Positions 16,682 through 25,540 of a stretch of DNA of 46,512 bases are shown here, piece by piece (position 1 is the stretch's first letter; each line of letters opens with the position of its first letter). The notes under the pieces were generated by a model. The model saw only the letters and a program-made list of their open reading frames with translations, had not been told where the DNA came from and did not search any database. Origin of the DNA: an uncultured Gemmiger sp. (GTDB lineage Bacteria > Bacillota > Clostridia > Oscillospirales > Ruminococcaceae); contig CASFJO010000081.1 of assembly GCA_949295035.1 (NCBI GenBank), positions 1 through 46,512 on the forward strand, read 5' to 3'. A program made the position numbers and the translations under genes.

Positions 16682-17557
16682 ATGCGCCACACCATGCGCC
16701 ATGTGAGCCTGTTCATCTGCATCCTGCTGATGGCGGGCGCCGCCGCCCTGATCGGCTCCCGGGGGCAGAGCCTTTCCAACCAGGAACTGGGCCAGCTGCA
16801 GGTCACCTGCTTTTCGCTGGAAGAGGGGCAGGCCACGCTGCTCCAGTGCGGCGGCCACGCGGTGCTGATCGACGCGGGCAGCGCCGCCGACGCGCCCGCC
16901 CTGCTGCAAAAGCTGGCCGACCGGCAGGTCACCCGGCTGGACGCGCTGGTGCTGAGCTATTTTTCCCCGCTGCGGATGGGCGGCGCGGCCCAGCTGCTGC
17001 GCAGCCTGCCCACCCAGGCGGTCTACGCGCCGGACTACGATCCCCCTGCCGACAGCCAGGGCGATTACCGCCGGCTGCTTCAGGCCATCGAGGGGGCGGG
17101 CATCCCGGTGCGGCTGCCGGATGAGGAGGGCGATACCCTGACCCTGGGCGACGCCCAGCTCACCCTGGAGCGGCCGCTGCAAGGCCACTATGAGGCGGCG
17201 GAGGGGGATTATTCCCTGGCCGCCAGCCTGGAACACGGGATGTTCTCCTTTCTGTTTCCCGGCGACGCGGGCGAGCAGCGGCTGGGTGAGTTGATGGCCC
17301 AGCTGCCGCTGAGCCACACGGTGCTGGTGCTGCCGGAACAGGGCGCCGTGCGGGAGAATACCAAGGCGTTTCTGCGGGCGGTGAATCCCGAGATCGCGGT
17401 GCTCACCGGCGCCGAGCCCCCCAGCCAGGACCTGCTGGACCTGCTGAACGGCATGGAGGACCTGGCTCTGCGGGAGCTGCTCCGCACCGCCCAGGGGGAC
17501 GTGACCTTTACCAGCAACGGCCTGGACGAACTGTCGGTCACCCAGGCGGAGGGCTGA
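16682..17557 (+). CDS. ComEC-like metallo-beta-lactamase-fold protein lacking the metal site
   Basis: The 291-residue protein starts at ATG 16682 behind GAAGGAGG. An N-terminal signal anchor (about residues 6-26) suggests it is membrane-bound or exported. The rest follows the ComEC C-terminal/MBL pattern: FSLEEGQATLLQCGGHAVLIDAG, then LDALVLSYFSPLRMGGA, FLFPGDAGEQRL and VLPEQGAVREN. In active members the second element reads THxHxDHxGG and the last PHHGS. Here every His of the HxHxDH motif and of the late motif is replaced, although LIDAG and GDA are kept. It is therefore probably a non-catalytic member acting by binding. It is flanked by its own promoter and a bidirectional terminator. Confidence 0.85.
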   Translation: MRHTMRHVSLFICILLMAGAAALIGSRGQSLSNQELGQLQVTCFSLEEGQATLLQCGGHAVLIDAGSAADAPALLQKLADRQVTRLDALVLSYFSPLRMGGAAQLLRSLPTQAVYAPDYDPPADSQGDYRRLLQAIEGAGIPVRLPDEEGDTLTLGDAQLTLERPLQGHYEAAEGDYSLAASLEHGMFSFLFPGDAGEQRLGELMAQLPLSHTVLVLPEQGAVRENTKAFLRAVNPEIAVLTGAEPPSQDLLDLLNGMEDLALRELLRTAQGDVTFTSNGLDELSVTQAEG

Positions 17558-17564
17558 ATCCACG

Positions 17565-17607
17565 AAAACGCCGGGCGGCGGTCGCTTTGACCGCCGCCCG
17601 GCGTTTT
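17565..17607. terminator. Bidirectional terminator between the MBL-fold and flippase genes
   Basis: A 19-bp stem (17565-17583 with 17589-17607) around the loop GCTTT starts with AAAA and ends with TTTT, so it works on both strands between convergent genes. Confidence 0.92.
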
Positions 17608-17619
17608 GTATCCGGCGCT

Positions 17620-19047
17620 TTATCCGGCTGCTTTCTTTTGCCCGGGCAGCCGCAGCCCCACCAGCCGGGTCAGGCTCCACACGCCCTTGAAGTTGAACAG
17701 GATCACCACGCCGGTGAGCAGGGTGGTCCATACCGGCCAGCCGGCGGGCTGGGCCAGCATGACGGCGGATTCCACCAGCAGCAGCAGGGTGTTGGCGGTA
17801 AGGCGGTTCAGGCTGAAGTCCACCCGCAGCAGGCCCCGGGTGTTCACCGCCCGCAGCGCGAACACCAGCACATAGCTCAAAAGGCTGGCCACGGTGGCGC
17901 CGTTGGGGCCCATGACCGGGATCATGAGCCAGTTCATGACGCAGTTGGCCAACGCGCCGGCCAGCATGGTGTACAGGCTCAGGGTGCTGCGCTTTTCCAC
18001 CACATAGATGGTGTTGAGGAACTGGTTGAAGCAGCTGAACACGGTGGCGACGGCCAGCATCGGCACAAACTGCCAGGCCTCATAGAAGTTGGAACGGAAC
18101 AGCAGCATCAGCGGGCGGCACAGCCAGATGATGCCCGCCCCGCAGCAGAATATGACCGCCTGGTACACCCCAAACACCCGGCTGAAAAAGGCCTCCCGGC
18201 GGCTGCGCTCGGTGACCGCCGACAGCTGCCAGGCCTCGTAGAAGATGGTGCCCAGGGTGGTGAGGATGGTGGGAAGAAAATAGCCGGTGCCCAAAAGGCC
18301 GGACCAGTAGGTGCCCTCGTCCCCCATCATGCCGGCCACGAAGAACAGGTCGCTGGCGTTGATGACCCAAAAACTGATCTGGGCGGGGATCATGGGCAGG
18401 GCGTACCGCAGCATGGCCCGCCACAACCGCCGGTTGAAGTGCCCCAGATCCAAATAGCGCCACAGCCCCGCGGCGCAGAAAACGAACAGGGTGCTGCACC
18501 CGTCGCCGCAGATAATGGCCAGCAGGTAGCCGGTGGCGCCCAGGGGCTTCACCACCAGGAACAGGATATAGAACAGCAGGGTGGCGCCGGTGCATAAGAT
18601 GCCGTCGATGGCCACCAGCCGGTTGAGCTGCCGGCTGCGCACGAACTGGGTGCAGAGGGTGCGCAGGCAGCTGACCAGCACGTACACGTACAGCAGCGCC
18701 GCATAGTCCGAGAACACCGGCAAAAGCCGGATCAGCGGATAGGCCAGCAGCATGAGCACAAAACCCATCAGGATGGTGACCAGCCCGCTGGTGAACACCT
18801 GCCGCTTGTTGTTGGCCCGGTCCAGCCCGAAGCGGATCACCGCAAAGCTGGTGCCCAGGCTGACCAGCGGGATCAGCAGGTTGGCGCACTGGCTGGTGAG
18901 CTTGGTGATGCCCACCTCCTGCACCTCTTTCATGGCGTAGGTCAGGAAGGGCTGAATGAACAGGCTCAGCAGCTTGGAGGAGAAATTGCTGATGGCGAAG
19001 ATCACCGTGTTCCCCGCCAGCTTTTTGTATCGGTTTTGCTCGGCCAC
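17620..19047 (-). CDS. Polysaccharide flippase (MOP/Wzx-type) family membrane protein
   Basis: This 475-residue protein has about 12-14 hydrophobic helices and the N-terminal pattern of the polysaccharide-synthesis/MOP flippase family (KLAGNTVIFAISNFSSKLLS). Such proteins move lipid-linked oligosaccharides across the cytoplasmic membrane. The start is GTG at 19047, seven bases after AAGGAGG. It lies 43 bp after the YgjP-like gene on the same strand with no terminator between them, so they form an operon. No glycosyltransferase genes adjoin it, so the cargo cannot be inferred. Confidence 0.88.
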   Translation of the reverse strand: MAEQNRYKKLAGNTVIFAISNFSSKLLSLFIQPFLTYAMKEVQEVGITKLTSQCANLLIPLVSLGTSFAVIRFGLDRANNKRQVFTSGLVTILMGFVLMLLAYPLIRLLPVFSDYAALLYVYVLVSCLRTLCTQFVRSRQLNRLVAIDGILCTGATLLFYILFLVVKPLGATGYLLAIICGDGCSTLFVFCAAGLWRYLDLGHFNRRLWRAMLRYALPMIPAQISFWVINASDLFFVAGMMGDEGTYWSGLLGTGYFLPTILTTLGTIFYEAWQLSAVTERSRREAFFSRVFGVYQAVIFCCGAGIIWLCRPLMLLFRSNFYEAWQFVPMLAVATVFSCFNQFLNTIYVVEKRSTLSLYTMLAGALANCVMNWLMIPVMGPNGATVASLLSYVLVFALRAVNTRGLLRVDFSLNRLTANTLLLLVESAVMLAQPAGWPVWTTLLTGVVILFNFKGVWSLTRLVGLRLPGQKKAAG

Positions 19048-19090
19048 AGCGCGGCCTCCTTCCTATCTATACGGGAGCGGCGGCAAAGCC

Positions 19091-19642
19091 CTACCCGCGC
19101 AGACGGGCCCGGCGCTCTTTCCAGTCAGGCATATACCGGGCCACCAGCGCCCAGAAATGGGGCTGATGGTCCGGCCAGACGAAATGGCAGTATTCATGCA
19201 GCATCACATAATCAATGAGTTCCGGTTCCCGGGCGGCCAGCCGCAGCGCCAGGGTGATGCGGTTTTGGGCCGGGCAGCACACACCCCAGCGGCTGCGCAT
19301 CTCCCGCACCCGCAGCTCAGGCGGCGCCGGCCGGATATCGGCGAACAGCGGCCAGATCCGGGCGCTGGAGGCAGCGAACAGAGCCAGGGCGGCCGCCTTG
19401 TCCGGCACGGGGCGGGCGGCCTCGGCGGCGGCCCGGTCAGCCTGCTTTTGCCGGGCGGCGGCGATCCAGCCGGCCCGGCCGGCCACAAACTCGTCCACCC
19501 GGGCGGTGGCGGTACGGGCCGGGGCGCTCACCGCCACCGTGCCGTCCGCCCGCACCCGCAGATTGATGTTGCGCACCCGCTTGCGGGTCAGTTCATACCG
19601 TACCCCGCCGGCGCTGCGGTACTGCACCGTCTGCTCTGCCAT
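19091..19642 (-). CDS. YgjP-like (DUF45) zinc metallopeptidase
   Basis: The 183-residue protein carries the zinc motif HEYCH in VMLHEYCHFVWPDHQPHFW, where the D-x-x-P-HFW continuation is characteristic of YgjP/SprT-like (WLM) metallopeptidases. An upstream segment, MRSRWGVC, is also typical. ATG 19642 is preferred because it follows AAAGGGGG and lies just downstream of a good promoter; an upstream extension of 26 codons would begin before the -10. It has no export signal. The substrate is unknown for this family. It is the first gene of a two-gene unit with the flippase. Confidence 0.88.
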   Translation of the reverse strand: MAEQTVQYRSAGGVRYELTRKRVRNINLRVRADGTVAVSAPARTATARVDEFVAGRAGWIAAARQKQADRAAAEAARPVPDKAAALALFAASSARIWPLFADIRPAPPELRVREMRSRWGVCCPAQNRITLALRLAAREPELIDYVMLHEYCHFVWPDHQPHFWALVARYMPDWKERRARLRG

Positions 19643-19665
19643 CCGCCGCGCCCCCTTTCGCGTGT

Positions 19666-19694
19666 ATTGTACCACAATTCCCCCGCGCAAACAA
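19666..19694 (-). promoter_or_regulatory. Promoter of the ygjP-like/flippase operon
   Basis: On the minus strand, TTGTTT (19694-19689), 17 bp, TACAAT (19671-19666), with TGG immediately before the -10. Confidence 0.7.
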
Positions 19695-19782
19695 GGAACG
19701 CGCATCCGGGCGTGCCGCAAAATCTCGGCACTGTGCTACAGTTTCGCCAAAATTTCGCGCAAAATGTTGGCGGCCCCGTTTC

Positions 19783-19812
19783 TTGACACGGTACTATATA
19801 TGGTGGCATAAT
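19783..19812 (+). promoter_or_regulatory. Promoter of the nrdD operon
   Basis: TTGACA (19783-19788) and CATAAT (19807-19812) are 18 bp apart. The spacer contains a NrdR-box-like palindrome, so repressor binding would cover the promoter. Confidence 0.8.
19791..19806 (+). promoter_or_regulatory. NrdR box 1
   Basis: The 16-mer GTACTATATATGGTGG matches the NrdR consensus acaCwAtATaTwGtgt at about 12 positions, including the central CTATATAT. NrdR is the universal bacterial repressor of ribonucleotide reductase genes. Confidence 0.7.
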
Positions 19813-19830
19813 AGAAAACGTTAACGAAAA

Positions 19831-19846
19831 ACACAAGATATATGGA
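19831..19846 (+). promoter_or_regulatory. NrdR box 2 (weaker)
   Basis: ACACAAGATATATGGA matches the NrdR consensus at about 12 of 16 positions. It begins 40 bp after box 1, close to four helical turns; the usual spacing is about three. Confidence 0.5.
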
Positions 19847-19901
19847 TTCGCCGCCGCTCCCCGTCCGGAGCAGGACCGAAGCCGTAGGCAAGGAGAGAAG
19901 C

Positions 19902-22193
19902 ATGATCACAAGCATTATGAAGCGCGACGGCCGGGTGGTGCTGTACGACGCGGGCAAGATCGCATCCGCCATCCTGAAGGCGCTGGAGGCCGCCGGCGAG
20001 GGGGACGCCGCCGAGGCGGCCCGGGTGGCCAACCGGGTGGAGCGGGAACTGGCGCTGGAGTGCGGCTCCGGTACCCCCCGCATCGAGCAGATCCAGGACC
20101 TGGTGGAGCGGCAGCTGATGGAGTGCGGCCACGACGAGGCAGCCAAGCGGTACATCCTGTACCGGGCCAACCGCACCCGCATCCGGGAGGCCAACTCCCA
20201 GCTGATGAAGACCATCGACGAGATCACCAACGTGGACGCCCGGCTGTCCGACATGAAGCGGGACAATGCCAACATCGACGGCAACACTGCCATGGGCAGC
20301 ATGCTGCAGATCGGCACCGCCGGGGCCAAGGCCTACAACGCGGCCTATCTCCTCACGCCGGAACAGGCCAAGGCCCACCGGGATGGCGACATCCACATCC
20401 ACGATTTCGACTTCTACTCTCTGACCACCACCTGCACCCAGATCGACATTCTGCGGCTGTTCCACGGGGGCTTCTCCACCGGGCACGGTTTTCTGCGGGA
20501 GCCCAACAGCATCGGCAGCTACGCGGCGCTGGCGGCCATCGCCATCCAGTCCAACCAGAACGACCAGCACGGCGGCCAGAGCATCCCGAACTTTGACTAC
20601 GGCATGGCCGAAGGGGTGGCCAAGACCTTTGCCAAGGCCTATGTGACCAAGCTGGCCGAGAGCGCTGAGGATATCCTGAGCAGCGAGGACGAGGGCGCCG
20701 CCGCCCGCGCCGCCGTGACCGAGGCCGCCCGGGCCACCGGCCACAACGCCCGCCTGGGCGAGGGGGACAGCGAGGCGGAGTTCGACCGGATCGCGGCCGA
20801 GGCCCTGGCCCGGGCCACCCGCCTGGACGGCGAGACCGCGGCCCGGCTGGTGGCCACCGCCCGCCGCCGGGCCTGGCGGCAGACCGACCGGGAGACCTAC
20901 CAGGCGATGGAGGGTTTTGTGCACAACCTGAACACCATGCACAGCCGGGCCGGCGCCCAGACCCCCTTCAGCAGCATCAACTACGGCACCGACACCAGCC
21001 CCGAAGGCCGCATGGTCATCCGGAACATCCTGATGGCCGAGGACGCGGGCCTGGGTTTTGGCGAGACCCCCATCTTCCCCATCCACATCTTCAAGGTCAA
21101 GGAAGGGGTCAACTACAACGAGGGCGATCCCAACTACGATCTGTTCCAGCTGAGCATGAAGGTCAGCGCCAAGCGGCTGTTCCCGAACTATGTGTTCCTG
21201 GACGCGCCTTTCAACCTGCAGTACTACAAACCCGGCCATCCCGAGACCGAGGTGGCCACCATGGGCTGCCGCACCCGCGTGATGGGCAACGTCTACGATC
21301 CCCAGCGGCAGATCGCCTACAGCCGGGGCAATCTGAGCTTCACCTCCATCAACCTGCCCCGGCTGGCCATCGAGGCCCACGGGGACGAGGCCAAATTCTA
21401 CGCTTCTCTGGACGAGAAGATGGAACTGGTAGCCCGGCAGCTGCTGGATCGGTTCGAGATCCAGGCGGCCAAGCGGGTGTACAACTACCCGTTCCTGATG
21501 GGCCAGGGCGTCTGGCTGGACAGCGACCAGCTGGGCCCCGCCGACGAGGTGCGGGAGGTGCTCCGGCACGGCACCCTGTCGATCGGGTTCATCGGCCTGG
21601 CCGAGACCCTCACCGCCCTGTACGGCCACCATCACGGCGAGAGCGACGAGATGCAGCGCAAGGGCCTGGAGATCGTGGGCCACATGCGCAAATTCTGCGA
21701 CGAAAAGAGCCAGGCCATGAAGATGAACTTCACCCTGCTGGCCACCCCGGCGGAGGGGCTGTCCGGCCGGTTCACCCGGATGGACCAGAAGCGGTACGGC
21801 TCCATCCCCGGCGTGACCGACCGGGAATACTACACCAACAGTTTCCACATCCCGGTGTGGTACCCCATCTCGGCCTACGACAAGATCCAGAAAGAGGCCC
21901 CCTACCACGCCCTGACCAACGCGGGCCACATCAGCTACGTGGAGCTGGACGGCGACACCGCCCACAACCTGGAGGCTTTTGAGAGCGTGGTGCGCTGCAT
22001 GCACGACGCGGGGGTGGGCTACGGCAGCATCAACCACCCGGTGGACCGTGACCCGGTGTGCGGCTACGTGGGGGTCATCGGGGACGTGTGCCCCCGGTGC
22101 GGCCGCCGCAGCGGCGAGGCCCTGCCGCCGGAAAAGCTGGCGGAACTGCGCAAAAAGTTCCCCGGCGTGCCCAGTTTCTGCGGCTGTGAATGA
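19902..22193 (+). CDS. nrdD: Anaerobic ribonucleoside-triphosphate reductase, large part without the glycyl-radical domain
   Basis: The 763-residue protein reduces ribonucleotides to deoxyribonucleotides under anoxia. It starts at ATG 19902 behind AGGAGAG. Residues 1-95 form an ATP-cone (SIMKRDGRVVLYDAGKIASA). The catalytic barrel includes SIGSYAALAAIAIQSNQNDQ and the cysteine in VATMGCRTRV. The tail has the zinc-site cysteines DPVCGY and DVCPRCG, where normal NrdD proteins continue within some tens of residues to the glycyl-radical motif RxTGYLVGT. Here the chain instead runs into an unusual tail (LPPEKLAELRKKFPGVP then FCGCE) and stops. The missing glycyl domain is encoded by the next gene, 22280-22426. 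NrdR boxes lie in the promoter. Confidence 0.95.
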   Translation: MITSIMKRDGRVVLYDAGKIASAILKALEAAGEGDAAEAARVANRVERELALECGSGTPRIEQIQDLVERQLMECGHDEAAKRYILYRANRTRIREANSQLMKTIDEITNVDARLSDMKRDNANIDGNTAMGSMLQIGTAGAKAYNAAYLLTPEQAKAHRDGDIHIHDFDFYSLTTTCTQIDILRLFHGGFSTGHGFLREPNSIGSYAALAAIAIQSNQNDQHGGQSIPNFDYGMAEGVAKTFAKAYVTKLAESAEDILSSEDEGAAARAAVTEAARATGHNARLGEGDSEAEFDRIAAEALARATRLDGETAARLVATARRRAWRQTDRETYQAMEGFVHNLNTMHSRAGAQTPFSSINYGTDTSPEGRMVIRNILMAEDAGLGFGETPIFPIHIFKVKEGVNYNEGDPNYDLFQLSMKVSAKRLFPNYVFLDAPFNLQYYKPGHPETEVATMGCRTRVMGNVYDPQRQIAYSRGNLSFTSINLPRLAIEAHGDEAKFYASLDEKMELVARQLLDRFEIQAAKRVYNYPFLMGQGVWLDSDQLGPADEVREVLRHGTLSIGFIGLAETLTALYGHHHGESDEMQRKGLEIVGHMRKFCDEKSQAMKMNFTLLATPAEGLSGRFTRMDQKRYGSIPGVTDREYYTNSFHIPVWYPISAYDKIQKEAPYHALTNAGHISYVELDGDTAHNLEAFESVVRCMHDAGVGYGSINHPVDRDPVCGYVGVIGDVCPRCGRRSGEALPPEKLAELRKKFPGVPSFCGCE

Positions 22194-22279
22194 GGGTTGC
22201 CGCCGCAACAGCCTTTTTGCCTTTCCCCTGCTATAGTAAGCGGGAAGAAAACGAATCATACCTACAGGAGGAACAGAAA

Positions 22280-22426
22280 ATGTCTGCTATGCAAAAACAG
22301 TCGGTCGTGGGCAAGGACGTGCCCTTTGAGCGCATCCGCCGGATCACCGGATACCTGGTGGGCACCATGGACAAGTGGAACGACGCCAAAAAGGCGGAAG
22401 AGCGCGACCGCGTCAAGCACCTGTAA
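22280..22426 (+). CDS. Stand-alone glycyl-radical domain of anaerobic ribonucleotide reductase
   Basis: This 48-residue protein begins at ATG 22280, eight bases after ACAGGAGG. It consists of the normal NrdD C-terminus: VPFERIRRITGYLVGT, with the glycine of GYLVG expected to carry the radical, followed by NDAKKAEERDRVKHL. It lies 86 bp after nrdD in another frame and three bases before nrdG. A separate ribosome site and a clean break in the linker between the zinc and glycyl domains argue against a sequencing error. NrdG would have to activate this peptide and the peptide would have to dock on NrdD, as YfiD does for pyruvate formate-lyase. An ATG at 22190 overlapping the nrdD stop is an alternative, less likely start. 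Confidence 0.9.
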   Translation: MSAMQKQSVVGKDVPFERIRRITGYLVGTMDKWNDAKKAEERDRVKHL

Positions 22427-22429
22427 GCC

Positions 22430-22936
22430 ATGCGGATCGCAGGACTGGCCCACGACAGCATCGTGGACGGCCCCGGGCTGCGCCTGACGGTGTTTTTCCA
22501 GGGCTGCCATCACCATTGTCCCGGCTGCCAGAACCCGGCCACCTGGCCCTTTGAGGGCGGCGAGGAATACACGGCGGAACAGCTGGTGGCCCAGGCGAAG
22601 AAGAGCCCGCTCTGCCGGGGGGTGACCCTCTCGGGCGGGGAACCCTTCGATCAGGCCGCCGGGGCGGCGGCCCTGGCGGCGGCCCTGAAGGCCGCGGGCT
22701 ACGAGGTGGCCGCCTATACCGGCTTCACCTTCGAGCAGCTGCTGGAGGCCGACGAGGCCCGCCGGGCGCTGCTGGAACAGCTGGACGTGCTGGTGGACGG
22801 GCCTTTTCTCCAGGAGGAGATGAGTTTGGACCTGCGCTTTCGCGGCAGCCGCAACCAGCGCATCCTGGACGTGCCCGCCAGCCTGGCCGCCGGCAGCGCC
22901 GTCTGGGTCACCGCCCCCCGCTGGGTGGGCGAATGA
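22430..22936 (+). CDS. nrdG: Anaerobic ribonucleotide reductase activating radical-SAM enzyme
   Basis: The 168-residue protein has the radical-SAM iron-sulfur motif Cx3CxxC in QGCHHHCPGCQNP and the SAM-binding TLSGGEPF, with the family opening IAGLAHDSIVDGPGLR. It abstracts hydrogen from the NrdD glycine to form the stable radical. ATG 22430 follows the stop of the 48-residue gene by three bases and lacks a ribosome site, so its translation probably depends on coupling to the glycyl-domain gene. Gene order nrdD, glycyl domain, nrdG. Confidence 0.95.
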   Translation: MRIAGLAHDSIVDGPGLRLTVFFQGCHHHCPGCQNPATWPFEGGEEYTAEQLVAQAKKSPLCRGVTLSGGEPFDQAAGAAALAAALKAAGYEVAAYTGFTFEQLLEADEARRALLEQLDVLVDGPFLQEEMSLDLRFRGSRNQRILDVPASLAAGSAVWVTAPRWVGE

Positions 22937-23118
22937 TGGGCTGATTCCGGGGGGCAGAACCTGTCTCCCCGATGCTGCGGGCGCAACAAGGATGCGCCCG
23001 CCCGGCTGTGCCGACCGCGTTGCCGGTCCAGAGCCCCACCGGGGCTTTGGCTGCTTCGCAGACCCGGCCCCCGGAACACATGGCCGGACATCTTCAGCCA
23101 TAGGGATTTCATAAGCCA
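22937..23118. other. Intergenic segment with several GC-rich hairpins
   Basis: No gene is visible. An imperfect GGGGGG...TCTCCCC hairpin lies at about 22948-22970. GCGGGCGC pairs with GCGCCCGC near 22977-23001, and AGCCCC pairs with GGGGCT near 23033-23047. It leads into the repeat core at 23119 and seems to be a degenerate left arm of the composite repeat. Confidence 0.5.
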
Positions 23119-23224
23119 ATAAGGCCGGTGCGTAAACGGATCACGCACCGGCCTTATCGTTTGTCTTTATCCCCCTGGCCGGAGTATTCCGGCCAGGGTT
23201 TACGGTATGGGGGACAGAGCCCCC
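23119..23224. repeat. Composite intergenic repeat, copy 1
   Basis: The core ATAAGGCCGGTGCGT pairs with ACGCACCGGCCTTAT around the loop AAACGGATC (23119-23157). It is followed by a hairpin CCCTGGCCGGA/TCCGGCCAGGG with loop GTAT (23173-23198) and GGGGG/CCCCC (23209-23224). It lies between the convergent nrdG and flavin-reductase genes and probably terminates both. Confidence 0.85.
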
Positions 23225-23226
23225 GC

Positions 23227-25540
23227 TCAGCCCATCACAGCCGCGGCGGCGTTGGCGCCGGCCAGCCGGCCGGAGGTGAAGGCAAAGCCCTGATCCACGC
23301 CGCCGTAGGTGACGTAGGGCTTCTTCTCGCTGTACAGCACGCCGGAGCAATCCAGGCCGGCGGCATAGACGTTCTCCATGACCGAGCCGTCCGCCAGCAG
23401 CACCTGGAACTGTTCATTCACATCCAGGGCGGCGCAGGTGCTGTAGCATGGTGATCATGTAGTAGGGGCCGTCGCCGGCGATGGGGGCCAGGTAGGCGGC
23501 GTCCTTGCCGAACTCCTCGTCCACGCCGGCCTCACAGGCAGCGTTGTAGTCGGCCACGGTCTGTTCCAGCACCGCCGGGTCCATGCCCAGCTGTTCGGCC
23601 AGGTCGGCCAGGGTATCGGCCTTGTACACATACCCGGCCTCCACCGCCGCATCCATCACCTCGGTGGCGTTGGGGATGGGGGTACCTTCCGGCGCCCAGC
23701 CGCAGGCGCCCAGGTTCACCGTCTGCATATAGGCGGGCTGGGTGCGGATGCCCCGCTCCTCCACCTCTTTAATCTGGGCGTCGGAGTAGAGGGTGTAGAA
23801 GGTCGGGCCGGACATCCATCCGTTGAAGCCCACGTTCTGCTCGCTGGTGAACCGCTCGCCCTCGGTGTTCACCACCAGGCTGTCGGGGGCGTTGCCCAGA
23901 TAGTTGGGCAGGTCGCCCTCGGTCCAGACGGTGTTCCGGTCGGTCTGGGCACAGTAGGTGTCCAGCTCATGGTACTCGAACTGGGTCAGGAAATCGGCCG
24001 CGCCGGTGATATGCACCACCGGGCACATGCCGATGCTGTAGGTGCCCGCGCCGTCGTCCAGGGCCGCCTGGATCATCTTGCCGTCGTTCTGGCGCATGCC
24101 CACCATGCTCCACTCGCCGGAGAGCGGATAGTACTCGTCGCTCAGGTACTCCTTCTCCATCTCCGCGTTGGCGCCGAAGCCGCCGGTGGCCAGGATGATG
24201 GAGTCGGCATAGATCTCATACTCGGTGCCGTCGTTGGTGTTGCGGGCCTTCACGCCCACCGTCTTGCCGTTTTCGTCCTGGATGAAGTCGTAGGCGGCGG
24301 TCTCCAGCTGGTACTTGCCGCCCATCTCGGTGAACTGCTCGATGCAGTTGTCAAAGAAGGTGATGTTGTGCCGCCGGCGCACGGTCATGCCTTCGGCCGC
24401 CGGCGCGTAGGAGAAAAGCACGATGTTGGAGTCGCCCTCGGTCAGGCCGCCCTTCGGCTGCTCCAGTTCCAGGCCGTAGTCGTAGACCAGCCAGTCCAGG
24501 GTCTCGCCGCAGTTGTCCAGCAGCAGTTCCACCATCTCCTGCTTGGCATCGCCCTCGGTGTAGTCCATCCAGTCGGCCAGCAAAGCGTCCCTGTCCACCC
24601 AGTCGTTGCCGCCGTTGAACTCCGCCGCCAGCTTGGGCGGGTTCACCGCGAACACACCGGAGCACAGAAAGGACGCGCCGCCGTACCGGCCGGCCTTGTC
24701 GATGGCCAGCACGCTCACGCTGTCCGGGTCGGCCTCGTACATGGTCTCGGCGGCAGAGAGGGCCGCGGTGGTGCCGGCCGCGCCCATGCCCACCACCAGC
24801 ACGTCGGTCTCGATGGTCTCCACCGCGTCGCTCTTGGCGGGCGCGACCTGGAAGGCCGCGATGGCCGCCGGATCGCTGCCGCCGGCCTCCAGGGCCTGGG
24901 TCAGCGCCTGCTTGACCGCCTCCTTGATGGCGTTGCTGGAGACGGTGGCGCCGCTCACCGCGTCCACCGCCACCGACTGGCTTTCCAGGATGCGGGGCAC
25001 GGTCAACGCAATGGCGCTGTCAATGATGCCCACCGTGTCGGCGGTGTCGGTCACCTGGATGTCGGTGATGCGGGTCTGGTCCGCCGTCACGCTGACCTTC
25101 ATCGGCCAGGCACTGCGGAACCCGGTGGCCTGCCCCTCATAGGTGCCGGGCGCCATGCTGACGGTCAGGTCGGTGGTCACCCCGTTCAGTTCGTTCCAGG
25201 CCTGCCCGGCCGCCGCGAGCACCGCGTCGGAGGTCACGATGGCGCCGGCCACCGCGTCCACCTCCACGCTGCCGGCCTCCTTCATGGCCGCCTGCAGGGT
25301 GGGGATCGCCTTGCCGCCCACGTCGGGGGTCTCGCCGTCGCCGGTGACGGCCACATCGGTCAGGTTGCCCTCGGCGTCCATGGTCAGGGTCACCGACACC
25401 TGGCCGCCAAAGCCCGACGCCGTGCCGGTGGCGGTGCGGGCATCGGCGCTGCCGCCGCTCTGCGCCGTGCCGCAGCCGGCCAGTATGGCCGCGCAGAGCA
25501 CCACGCTCAACAGCCGGGACAAAATCTTCGCATGTTTCAC
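23227..25540 (-). pseudogene. Extracellular FMN/FAD-dependent reductase (fumarate/urocanate reductase type), frameshifted near the 3' end
   Basis: GTG 25540, seven bases after AAGGAGG, opens a lipoprotein signal (LAGC). Two FMN-binding domains follow. The second carries DAVSGATVSS, matching the covalent flavinylation motif Dxx(S/T)GAT; the first has DAVAGAIVTS, with Ile at the acceptor position, so it is probably not flavinylated. A FAD-binding reductase domain begins at about residue 245 (VLVVGMGAAGTTAALSAAE). The frame ends early at 23414, but the neighbouring frame continues from about 23440 to 23227 with the expected C-terminus (YAAGLDCSGVLYSEKKPYVTYGG, then SGRLAGANAAAA). One extra base (or two missing) near 23440-23447 explains this; the restored protein would be 770 residues. 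Such enzymes use external electron acceptors; the substrate is unknown. The truncated form lacks the last FAD-contact segment. Confidence 0.82.

Follow-up and report, generated by a model that had tools for sequence, protein, structure and literature searches.

Must the radical glycine of an anaerobic, class III ribonucleotide reductase lie in the catalytic chain itself? This question is raised by a locus of an uncultured Gemmiger sp. (GenBank assembly GCA_949295035.1, contig CASFJO010000081.1, positions 1 to 46,512 of the forward strand; this whole stretch is referred to as the window), in which an nrdD gene without radical loop is followed by a small gene that encodes the loop and by nrdG, the gene of the activase. 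In the class III reductases studied so far the radical glycine is, to our knowledge, within the catalytic chain. An earlier note on this DNA had described an NrdD of 763 amino acids (aa) ending past its zinc cysteines, a free-standing gene for a 48-aa radical peptide preceded by AGGAGG, and nrdG three bases further on, and this arrangement was confirmed. It had also proposed that the radical domain is a separate, obligate product working in trans, as YfiD does. We agree, and consider it very probable that the locus specifies a class III reductase of two chains, in which the radical subunit acts in trans and is obligate for its NrdD. This reading is carried by the anatomy of the genes, their conservation, the purifying selection on them, the lack of a frame relation between them, the failure to find a fused copy and the recurrence of the split; we infer that the peptide binds NrdD in trans, is activated by NrdG and takes part in catalysis.

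The Split nrdD Locus

The features of the locus that bear on this reading are the following:

19902..22193, forward strand: nrdD body, the catalytic chain of a class III ribonucleotide reductase without the radical loop, 763 aa (ATG at 19902, stop at 22193; PRK07111, ATP-cone and NRDD profiles)
20265..20273, forward strand: NxN flap, N122-A123-N124 (identical in 45 of 45 aligned fused and split rows)
21267..21269, forward strand: Cys456, likely the finger-loop cysteine that bears the thiyl radical (by homology; invariant in the 45 rows, role inferred from the family)
22050..22100, forward strand: zinc-site region D717..C720..C730..C733 (three cysteines invariant in the 45 rows)
22110..22190, forward strand: replacement C-terminal tail of NrdD, pattern GE..PEKL..L....P.F.G.E (predicted helix 743-752, low confidence after it)
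22266..22271, forward strand: AGGAGG Shine-Dalgarno sequence of the peptide gene (eight bases to the ATG; the same in 4 aligned genomes)
22280..22426, forward strand: free-standing glycyl-radical peptide, 48 aa, with Gly24 at 22349-22351 by homology (ATG at 22280, stop at 22426)
22430..22936, forward strand: nrdG, radical-SAM activase, 168 aa (TIGR02491, 134.4 bits against a cut-off of 126.1)

The start of nrdG lies three bases past the stop codon of the peptide, and the cognate activase is thus encoded close to nrdD. The profile PF13597 (NRDD, 562 positions) is divided over two genes: NrdD matches positions 1-530 with 608.1 bits, and the peptide matches 532-562 with 35.8 bits against a cut-off of 26.2. 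PRK07111 (746 positions) is cut at nearly the same place, since 1-710 match NrdD (1066.9 bits, over the cut-off) and 709-743 fall in the peptide. NrdD has both the catalytic barrel profile and the ATP cone (PF03477, Pfam) of a class III reductase; the loop, which such an enzyme would have in the same chain, is encoded by the separate gene. The NxN flap, whose role is described for Prevotella copri NrdD in passages of PMC11226230, the active-site Cys178 and the finger-loop Cys456, which pairs with MGCRTRV of the P. copri structure 8P23, showed no variation across the 45 aligned bodies, whether fused or split.

The two products together fit that structure with a single unmatched residue at the junction, the body covering 5-243 and 282-705 of the 8P23 chain and the peptide covering 707-739 (E 3.3e-7). 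Gly24 of the peptide falls on chain residue 715; given that Met1 of the body falls on chain residue 5, an offset of four is deduced and residue 715 would be Gly711, named as the radical glycine of P. copri NrdD in the consulted part of PMC11226230. The AlphaFold2 model of NrdD reached a mean pLDDT of 87.7, with the last seven residues below 50, and its best matches in the PDB were P. copri NrdD (target TM 0.74 to 0.89 among the listed chains, 37-41% identity). The NrdD of the locus, lacking its loop, is predicted by this model to fold as an NrdD. The peptide, searched against Pfam and NCBIfam at E 0.001, matched solely the C-terminus of full-length NrdD models, and having no family of its own it may leave truncated NrdD genes to be taken for broken ones in annotation.

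Conservation and Selection in the Genus

The genome to which the window belongs (2.64 Mb, 97 contigs) is 91.8% complete, and within it no NRDD match was found beyond the two pieces of the window; a second full-length nrdD, which the earlier note had named as a reason to abandon its proposal, was accordingly not encountered in that fraction. Two congeners at 99% completeness likewise gave no further NRDD match above the cut-off. The split was present in all four searched genomes of the genus, own included, so neither its absence from close relatives nor a sequencing error whose correction would join the two frames, both also named in advance as refutations, was borne out.

The differences among these genomes are mostly silent. 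Against each of three congeners the peptide gene showed 6 synonymous codon differences and no non-synonymous one, and comparison of every pair among 8 near genomes, from the genus and from relatives, gave 321 synonymous against 26 non-synonymous codon differences, distributed as 12, 14 and 336 over the three codon positions. For NrdD the synonymous and non-synonymous codon differences from the three congeners were 119/36, 114/35 and 77/22. This silent excess indicates selection on both genes as proteins. The segment RIRRITGYLVG did not vary at all across 20 aligned free-standing peptides.

C-Terminal Tails and Zinc Site of NrdD

The tail of the NrdD in the window, PEKLAELRKKFPGVPSFCGCE, has no R..GY radical motif. 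On a tree of NrdD bodies (described below) this NrdD is grouped, with support, among 19 short-tail bodies. Among 16 aligned short tails G1, E2 and L12 are fully shared, with P17 and G24 at 90%, and no relation of the short tails to the radical loop was detected. The window tail shares GE.V..EKL..L with longer tails, and the first 13 positions are common to short and long tails with a probability of 93.5%. The long tails (17 aligned) have about the length of a fused loop, keep some of its ends and have conserved glycines; R..GY is mostly gone from them. Their comparison with the loop by hhalign gave P 0.003 but a probability of 10%. When their columns were shuffled, 0 of 5000 and 0 of 1000 shuffles were as good (for 5 and 7 of the 17 tails), between end points picked by eye once the rows were seen. 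It is moderately supported by these alignments that the tails of the operonic form represent an attached loop that decayed after the free peptide took over.

At the zinc site three cysteines were found instead of four; the first position is taken by Asp717, which the alignment places opposite the first zinc cysteine of 8P23. Asp717 occurs in at least 90% of the 45 fused and split rows, and being common to fused relatives it is a trait of the lineage and not of the split. The suggestion of the earlier note that an extra CxC at the end of NrdD completes the site was rejected, as CGC stands there in just 5 of the 16 aligned short tails and the fused relatives also have Asp717.

Recurrence of the Split

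The earlier note had called for a search for relatives with a loop-less NrdD and a small radical protein, and in that search the split proved not to be a one-off. Three architectures recur: an operonic split NrdD; a free-standing radical protein of 90-100 residues, encoded elsewhere in a genome that has an intact NrdD; and such a protein with an NrdD that ends at about the glycine. We call type A the short operonic peptide, as in the window, and type B a longer free-standing radical protein.

In the family survey an alignment of 20 peptides was searched against 118 genomes, requested at a completeness of at least 95% (own, at 91.8%, was included), and the radical segment was matched in 85 of them. 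Matches were classed by the length of the open frame, those of at least 400 residues being counted as fused, including two shorter ones, of 401 and 541 residues, and a frame with an internal stop; on this basis 26 genomes had the fused form only, 32 type A only and 10 type B only, while type B and fused occurred together in 14, type A and fused in 2, and all three in 1. A free-standing copy was thus present in 59 of the 85, and 42 of the 85 had no fused copy of this segment. It must be noted that some of those 42 (G022, G067 and G159 among the genomes searched whole) do have a full-length NrdD with a different radical segment. In G022 a frame of 961 residues with full-length NRDD (L195) has an end that by eye resembles a thioredoxin or glutaredoxin domain. 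In a class-level sample, also of 118 genomes, 41 matched, with frames shorter than 150 residues in 5 (own, G391, G373, G360 and G065); in G373 a type-B-like second radical gene lies immediately downstream of a fused NrdD (L153).

In a second collection, a peptide scan of 84,980 species genomes gave at least 592 stretches, at least 552 of them confirmed, and the best 80 loci were used. By pattern, 38 of these 80 were split (a loop-less NrdD body and a separate peptide), 20 were fused, and in 22 the peptide stood alone within the fetched stretch; one of these 22 (L082) has an NrdD body upstream, which escaped the pattern and was recognised by hand. In a set of 74 body-peptide pairs from 73 loci (L046 contributes two), the frame offsets from the NrdD stop to the peptide were distributed as 30, 25 and 19. 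No frame is therefore conserved, and readthrough or frameshifting is not a general explanation. The gap ranged from 0 to 483 bases (median 53.5 in the 72 pairs with a chosen start), 72 of the 74 peptides had a Shine-Dalgarno-like start, and an nrdG pattern followed within 400 bases in 49 of the 74 pairs. A frame open from the NrdD stop directly into the peptide was seen in 17 of the 74. In L046 (2920-3556) one truncated NrdD is followed by two tandem free-standing radical peptides.

Searched whole, the genomes of L040, L046 and L109 had truncated NrdD bodies only, each with peptides, and that of L051 had two full-length NrdD and a short peptide adjoining nrdG.

Type-B Proteins and Glycine-Ending NrdD

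The type-B proteins are 90-97 residues long (10 aligned). Their N-terminal part had no Pfam or NCBIfam match above the cut-off in the three scanned; in a model of one protein it is predicted as beta-alpha-beta-beta (pLDDT about 80 there, 62.8 overall), and a fold search with this model, at that overall pLDDT of 62.8, returned nothing at E 0.001 or better. Of nine chosen type-B genomes searched whole, eight also had a full-length NrdD (1-562), and the ninth (L118, G459) had one truncated NrdD body and three free-standing radical segments. By analogy, a repair protein for NrdD on the YfiD model would be expected to look like type B beside an intact NrdD. In two loci (L057:3286-4144 and L086:3297-4144) the type-B gene lies directly 3' of a gene for rubrerythrin, an oxidative-stress protein, which suggests a context of oxygen damage.

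Among 18 chosen genomes, 6 also had a full-length NRDD match and 12 had loop-less NrdD bodies only. In nine of these 12 (G178, G163, G144, G092, G032, G096, G037, G073 and G017) the radical segment occurred only as a type-B gene elsewhere, at about 39 kb from nrdD in G178 and on another contig in the other eight, so adjacency is not required. The NrdD of these nine stops at or near the glycine (...HERIRRITTCG, ...KERIPRITCC, ...HERIKRISCCK, ...FERIKRIR; the tail of G096 is less clear), where fused relatives read FERIRRITGYLVG. Passages of PMC8683613 describe the cleavage of pyruvate formate-lyase by oxygen at the radical glycine, a fate to which every enzyme of this kind is regarded as liable; the glycine-ending NrdD genes therefore look like hard-wired versions of the cleaved enzyme.

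The tree was built by a quick search without bootstrap from 93 of 106 bodies (13 were excluded to thin the set: a duplicate of the window, 1 partial, 9 fused and 2 short-tail). On it the 11 glycine-ending bodies cannot be accounted for with fewer than 5 changes of state, counted by well-supported branches, with labels assigned by hand from the tails, "short" as the default, and regains possibly among the changes. Most simply, these changes would be separate losses.

Viruses

A scan of virus contigs found 404 relatives. When the best 80 of the 404 were classed by pattern, the peptide was alone in the fetched stretch in 56, fused in 17 and accompanied by a body in 7. Of 34 of these virus records searched whole, 31 had the radical segment without an NrdD body match, 2 had a split NrdD and 1 a fused one; the records measure 10 to 94.6 kb and none reaches a rating of 90% completeness, and a missing part could therefore contain a body. 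In the Eggerthella phage EL753P1 (OP172808.1; L289:5873-6086) nrdD lacks the loop, and a small region nearby encodes it in a frame that is broken immediately ahead of the glycine. The Y06I protein carried by phage T4 serves pyruvate formate-lyase, as stated in the part of PMC8683613 consulted, and by this precedent spare parts for the NrdD of the host are a natural reading of the virus-borne copies.

Proposed Mechanism and Origin

In the mechanism we propose, NrdD would supply the barrel, the allosteric cone and the zinc region, without a radical loop, and the 48-residue peptide would bring the loop (RRITGYLVG) and the C-terminal segment. The peptide would dock on NrdD, NrdG would take a hydrogen from Gly24, probably in the docked state, and the loop inside the barrel would pass the radical to the finger-loop cysteine. 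Sections of PMC11226230 report that P. copri NrdD in its dATP-bound states has a resolved core and a disordered radical domain, so docking and undocking of the radical segment are already known in one member. As for the origin, a spare-part protein rescuing oxygen-cleaved NrdD may have made the attached loop dispensable, after which the loop would have decayed or been lost.

On balance, and with some reserve, we favour a wider view, in which class III reductase has repeatedly become a two-component enzyme with a small, exchangeable and disposable radical subunit. Spare parts for the repair of oxygen damage would have come first, the loop would then have been shed (several times by ending at the glycine, as though the cut by oxygen had become permanent), and phages would carry spares that restore or keep the deoxynucleotide supply of the host.

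Alternative Explanations

Several observations weigh against a two-chain, obligate enzyme. The part missing from the 91.8% complete genome could hide a second NrdD, and one congener (G001) has an extra weak NRDD match of 18.7 bits. A class II, B12-dependent ribonucleoside-triphosphate reductase is also encoded in the genome (L208:898-3279, G000 contig C13; TIGR02505, 379.3 bits), so NrdD is not the sole reductase and the split enzyme may be dispensable; no match to the small subunit of a class I reductase was found there. In three congeners (G001-G003) the peptide is in frame past a single TAA of NrdD with no other stop, the window being out of frame. Finally, the radical domain of Streptococcus thermophilus NrdD keeps a position independent of the state of the cone, according to the abstract of PMC12662201, so loose docking is not general.

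The in-frame genomes, together with the 17 of 74 pairs with a straight open frame, are what would be expected if stop-codon readthrough or frameshifting yielded a single chain after all. We consider this very unlikely, as the window is out of frame, the offsets (30/25/19) and gaps (0 to 483 bases) vary, 72 of 74 peptides have a ribosome-binding-like start of their own and copies encoded elsewhere cannot be fused by readthrough. That an ordinary fused NrdD was cut by a sequencing or assembly error, or is a decaying pseudogene, might be thought of for one contig in a 97-contig, 91.8% complete genome; however, the same split in 4 of 4 genus genomes, its occurrence in 38 of the best 80 loci by pattern and one by hand, and the strong purifying selection make it extremely improbable, and a frameshift or assembly error is refuted by the independent assemblies. 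Hardly any credence can be given to a role of the peptide with another glycyl-radical enzyme. YfiD and Y06I do serve pyruvate formate-lyase (PMC8683613, in the part consulted), but the sole Pfam and NCBIfam matches of the peptide at E 0.001 are to the C-terminus of NrdD, its gene sits between nrdD and nrdG, and the matching NrdD bodies miss exactly this piece. It is unlikely, too, that the peptide is a repair part only and that the tail of undamaged NrdD carries a working radical itself. Among the 24 family genomes that have type B but lack type A, 14 also have fused NrdD, so pure repair use likely exists, and the long tails retain conserved glycines; nevertheless, the window tail lacks R..GY, the short tails share few positions and a full-length NrdD was not found in the 91.8% of the genome available. 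A radical subunit acting in trans therefore remains the reading we prefer.

Relation to Known Systems

As in the two-chain enzyme proposed here, the radical of class I reductases (NrdA/NrdB) is held on a second subunit; that subunit is an unrelated, ferritin-like metal protein with a tyrosyl or metal radical and depends on oxygen. Fused NrdD, such as that of P. copri (8P23), shares the catalytic and allosteric parts as well as the radical segment, and differs in carrying the loop in one chain instead of a second. In the class II NrdJa/NrdJb a C-terminal domain of the reductase also comes from a separate gene, as given in the accessible part of PMC5704485; there, in contrast, the domain is cysteine-rich, belongs to a B12 enzyme and carries no radical.

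The closest likeness is to YfiD/GrcA of Escherichia coli and Y06I of phage T4, small free-standing proteins that duplicate the radical segment found at the C-terminus of a glycyl-radical enzyme. The type-B copies beside intact NrdD and the virus-borne copies mirror YfiD and Y06I, respectively, and type B repeats the FERIRRIT kept by glycine-ending NrdD, similarly to YfiD, which has its own copy of a strand left on the cleaved enzyme (described in part of PMC8683613). The peptide of the window differs from YfiD/GrcA in being of NrdD type by sequence and not of pyruvate formate-lyase type (it matched only NrdD families at E 0.001), and type A lacks an N-terminal domain. An intact parent enzyme, as for YfiD/GrcA, was found in 8 of the 9 chosen type-B genomes and not in the 91.8% complete genome of the window, where the peptide would be a standing subunit and not a spare. 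It is a free-standing protein with a glycyl-radical motif and probably works like an autonomous glycyl radical cofactor, yet by the tests applied it lies outside that family.

In the consulted portion of PMC8683613 the validated spare parts are only the two for pyruvate formate-lyase, others being considered possible; if our reading is true, this possibility becomes a testable question. The open-licence PMC literature searched, which does not extend to subscription papers and most preprints, yielded no description of either a split NrdD or a spare part for NrdD. A separate radical subunit, if true, would make it possible to install the radical, renew it after oxygen damage, dose it and exchange it apart from the large enzyme. 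The natural split would also offer a clean radical-transfer system, because a peptide of 48 residues can be synthesised or labelled.

The Region Between nrdD and the Peptide Gene

One further feature lies between the two genes:

22196..22209, forward strand: small hairpin followed by a T-run, weak and terminator-like (1 found against 0.6 expected)

An Rfam scan of 17000-24000 gave zero matches, the fold z-score of the intergenic RNA between nrdD and the peptide gene was 0.09, and a scan of 22100-22460 revealed no sigma-70 promoter, a TATACT/TATAGT box being noticed by eye only. The stem-loop bases of the hairpin are unchanged across the 4 aligned genomes, in which the hairpin, the T-run and the box (22196-22240) are all kept. 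This region is possibly an attenuator with a separate promoter, as a candidate, for the peptide and nrdG.

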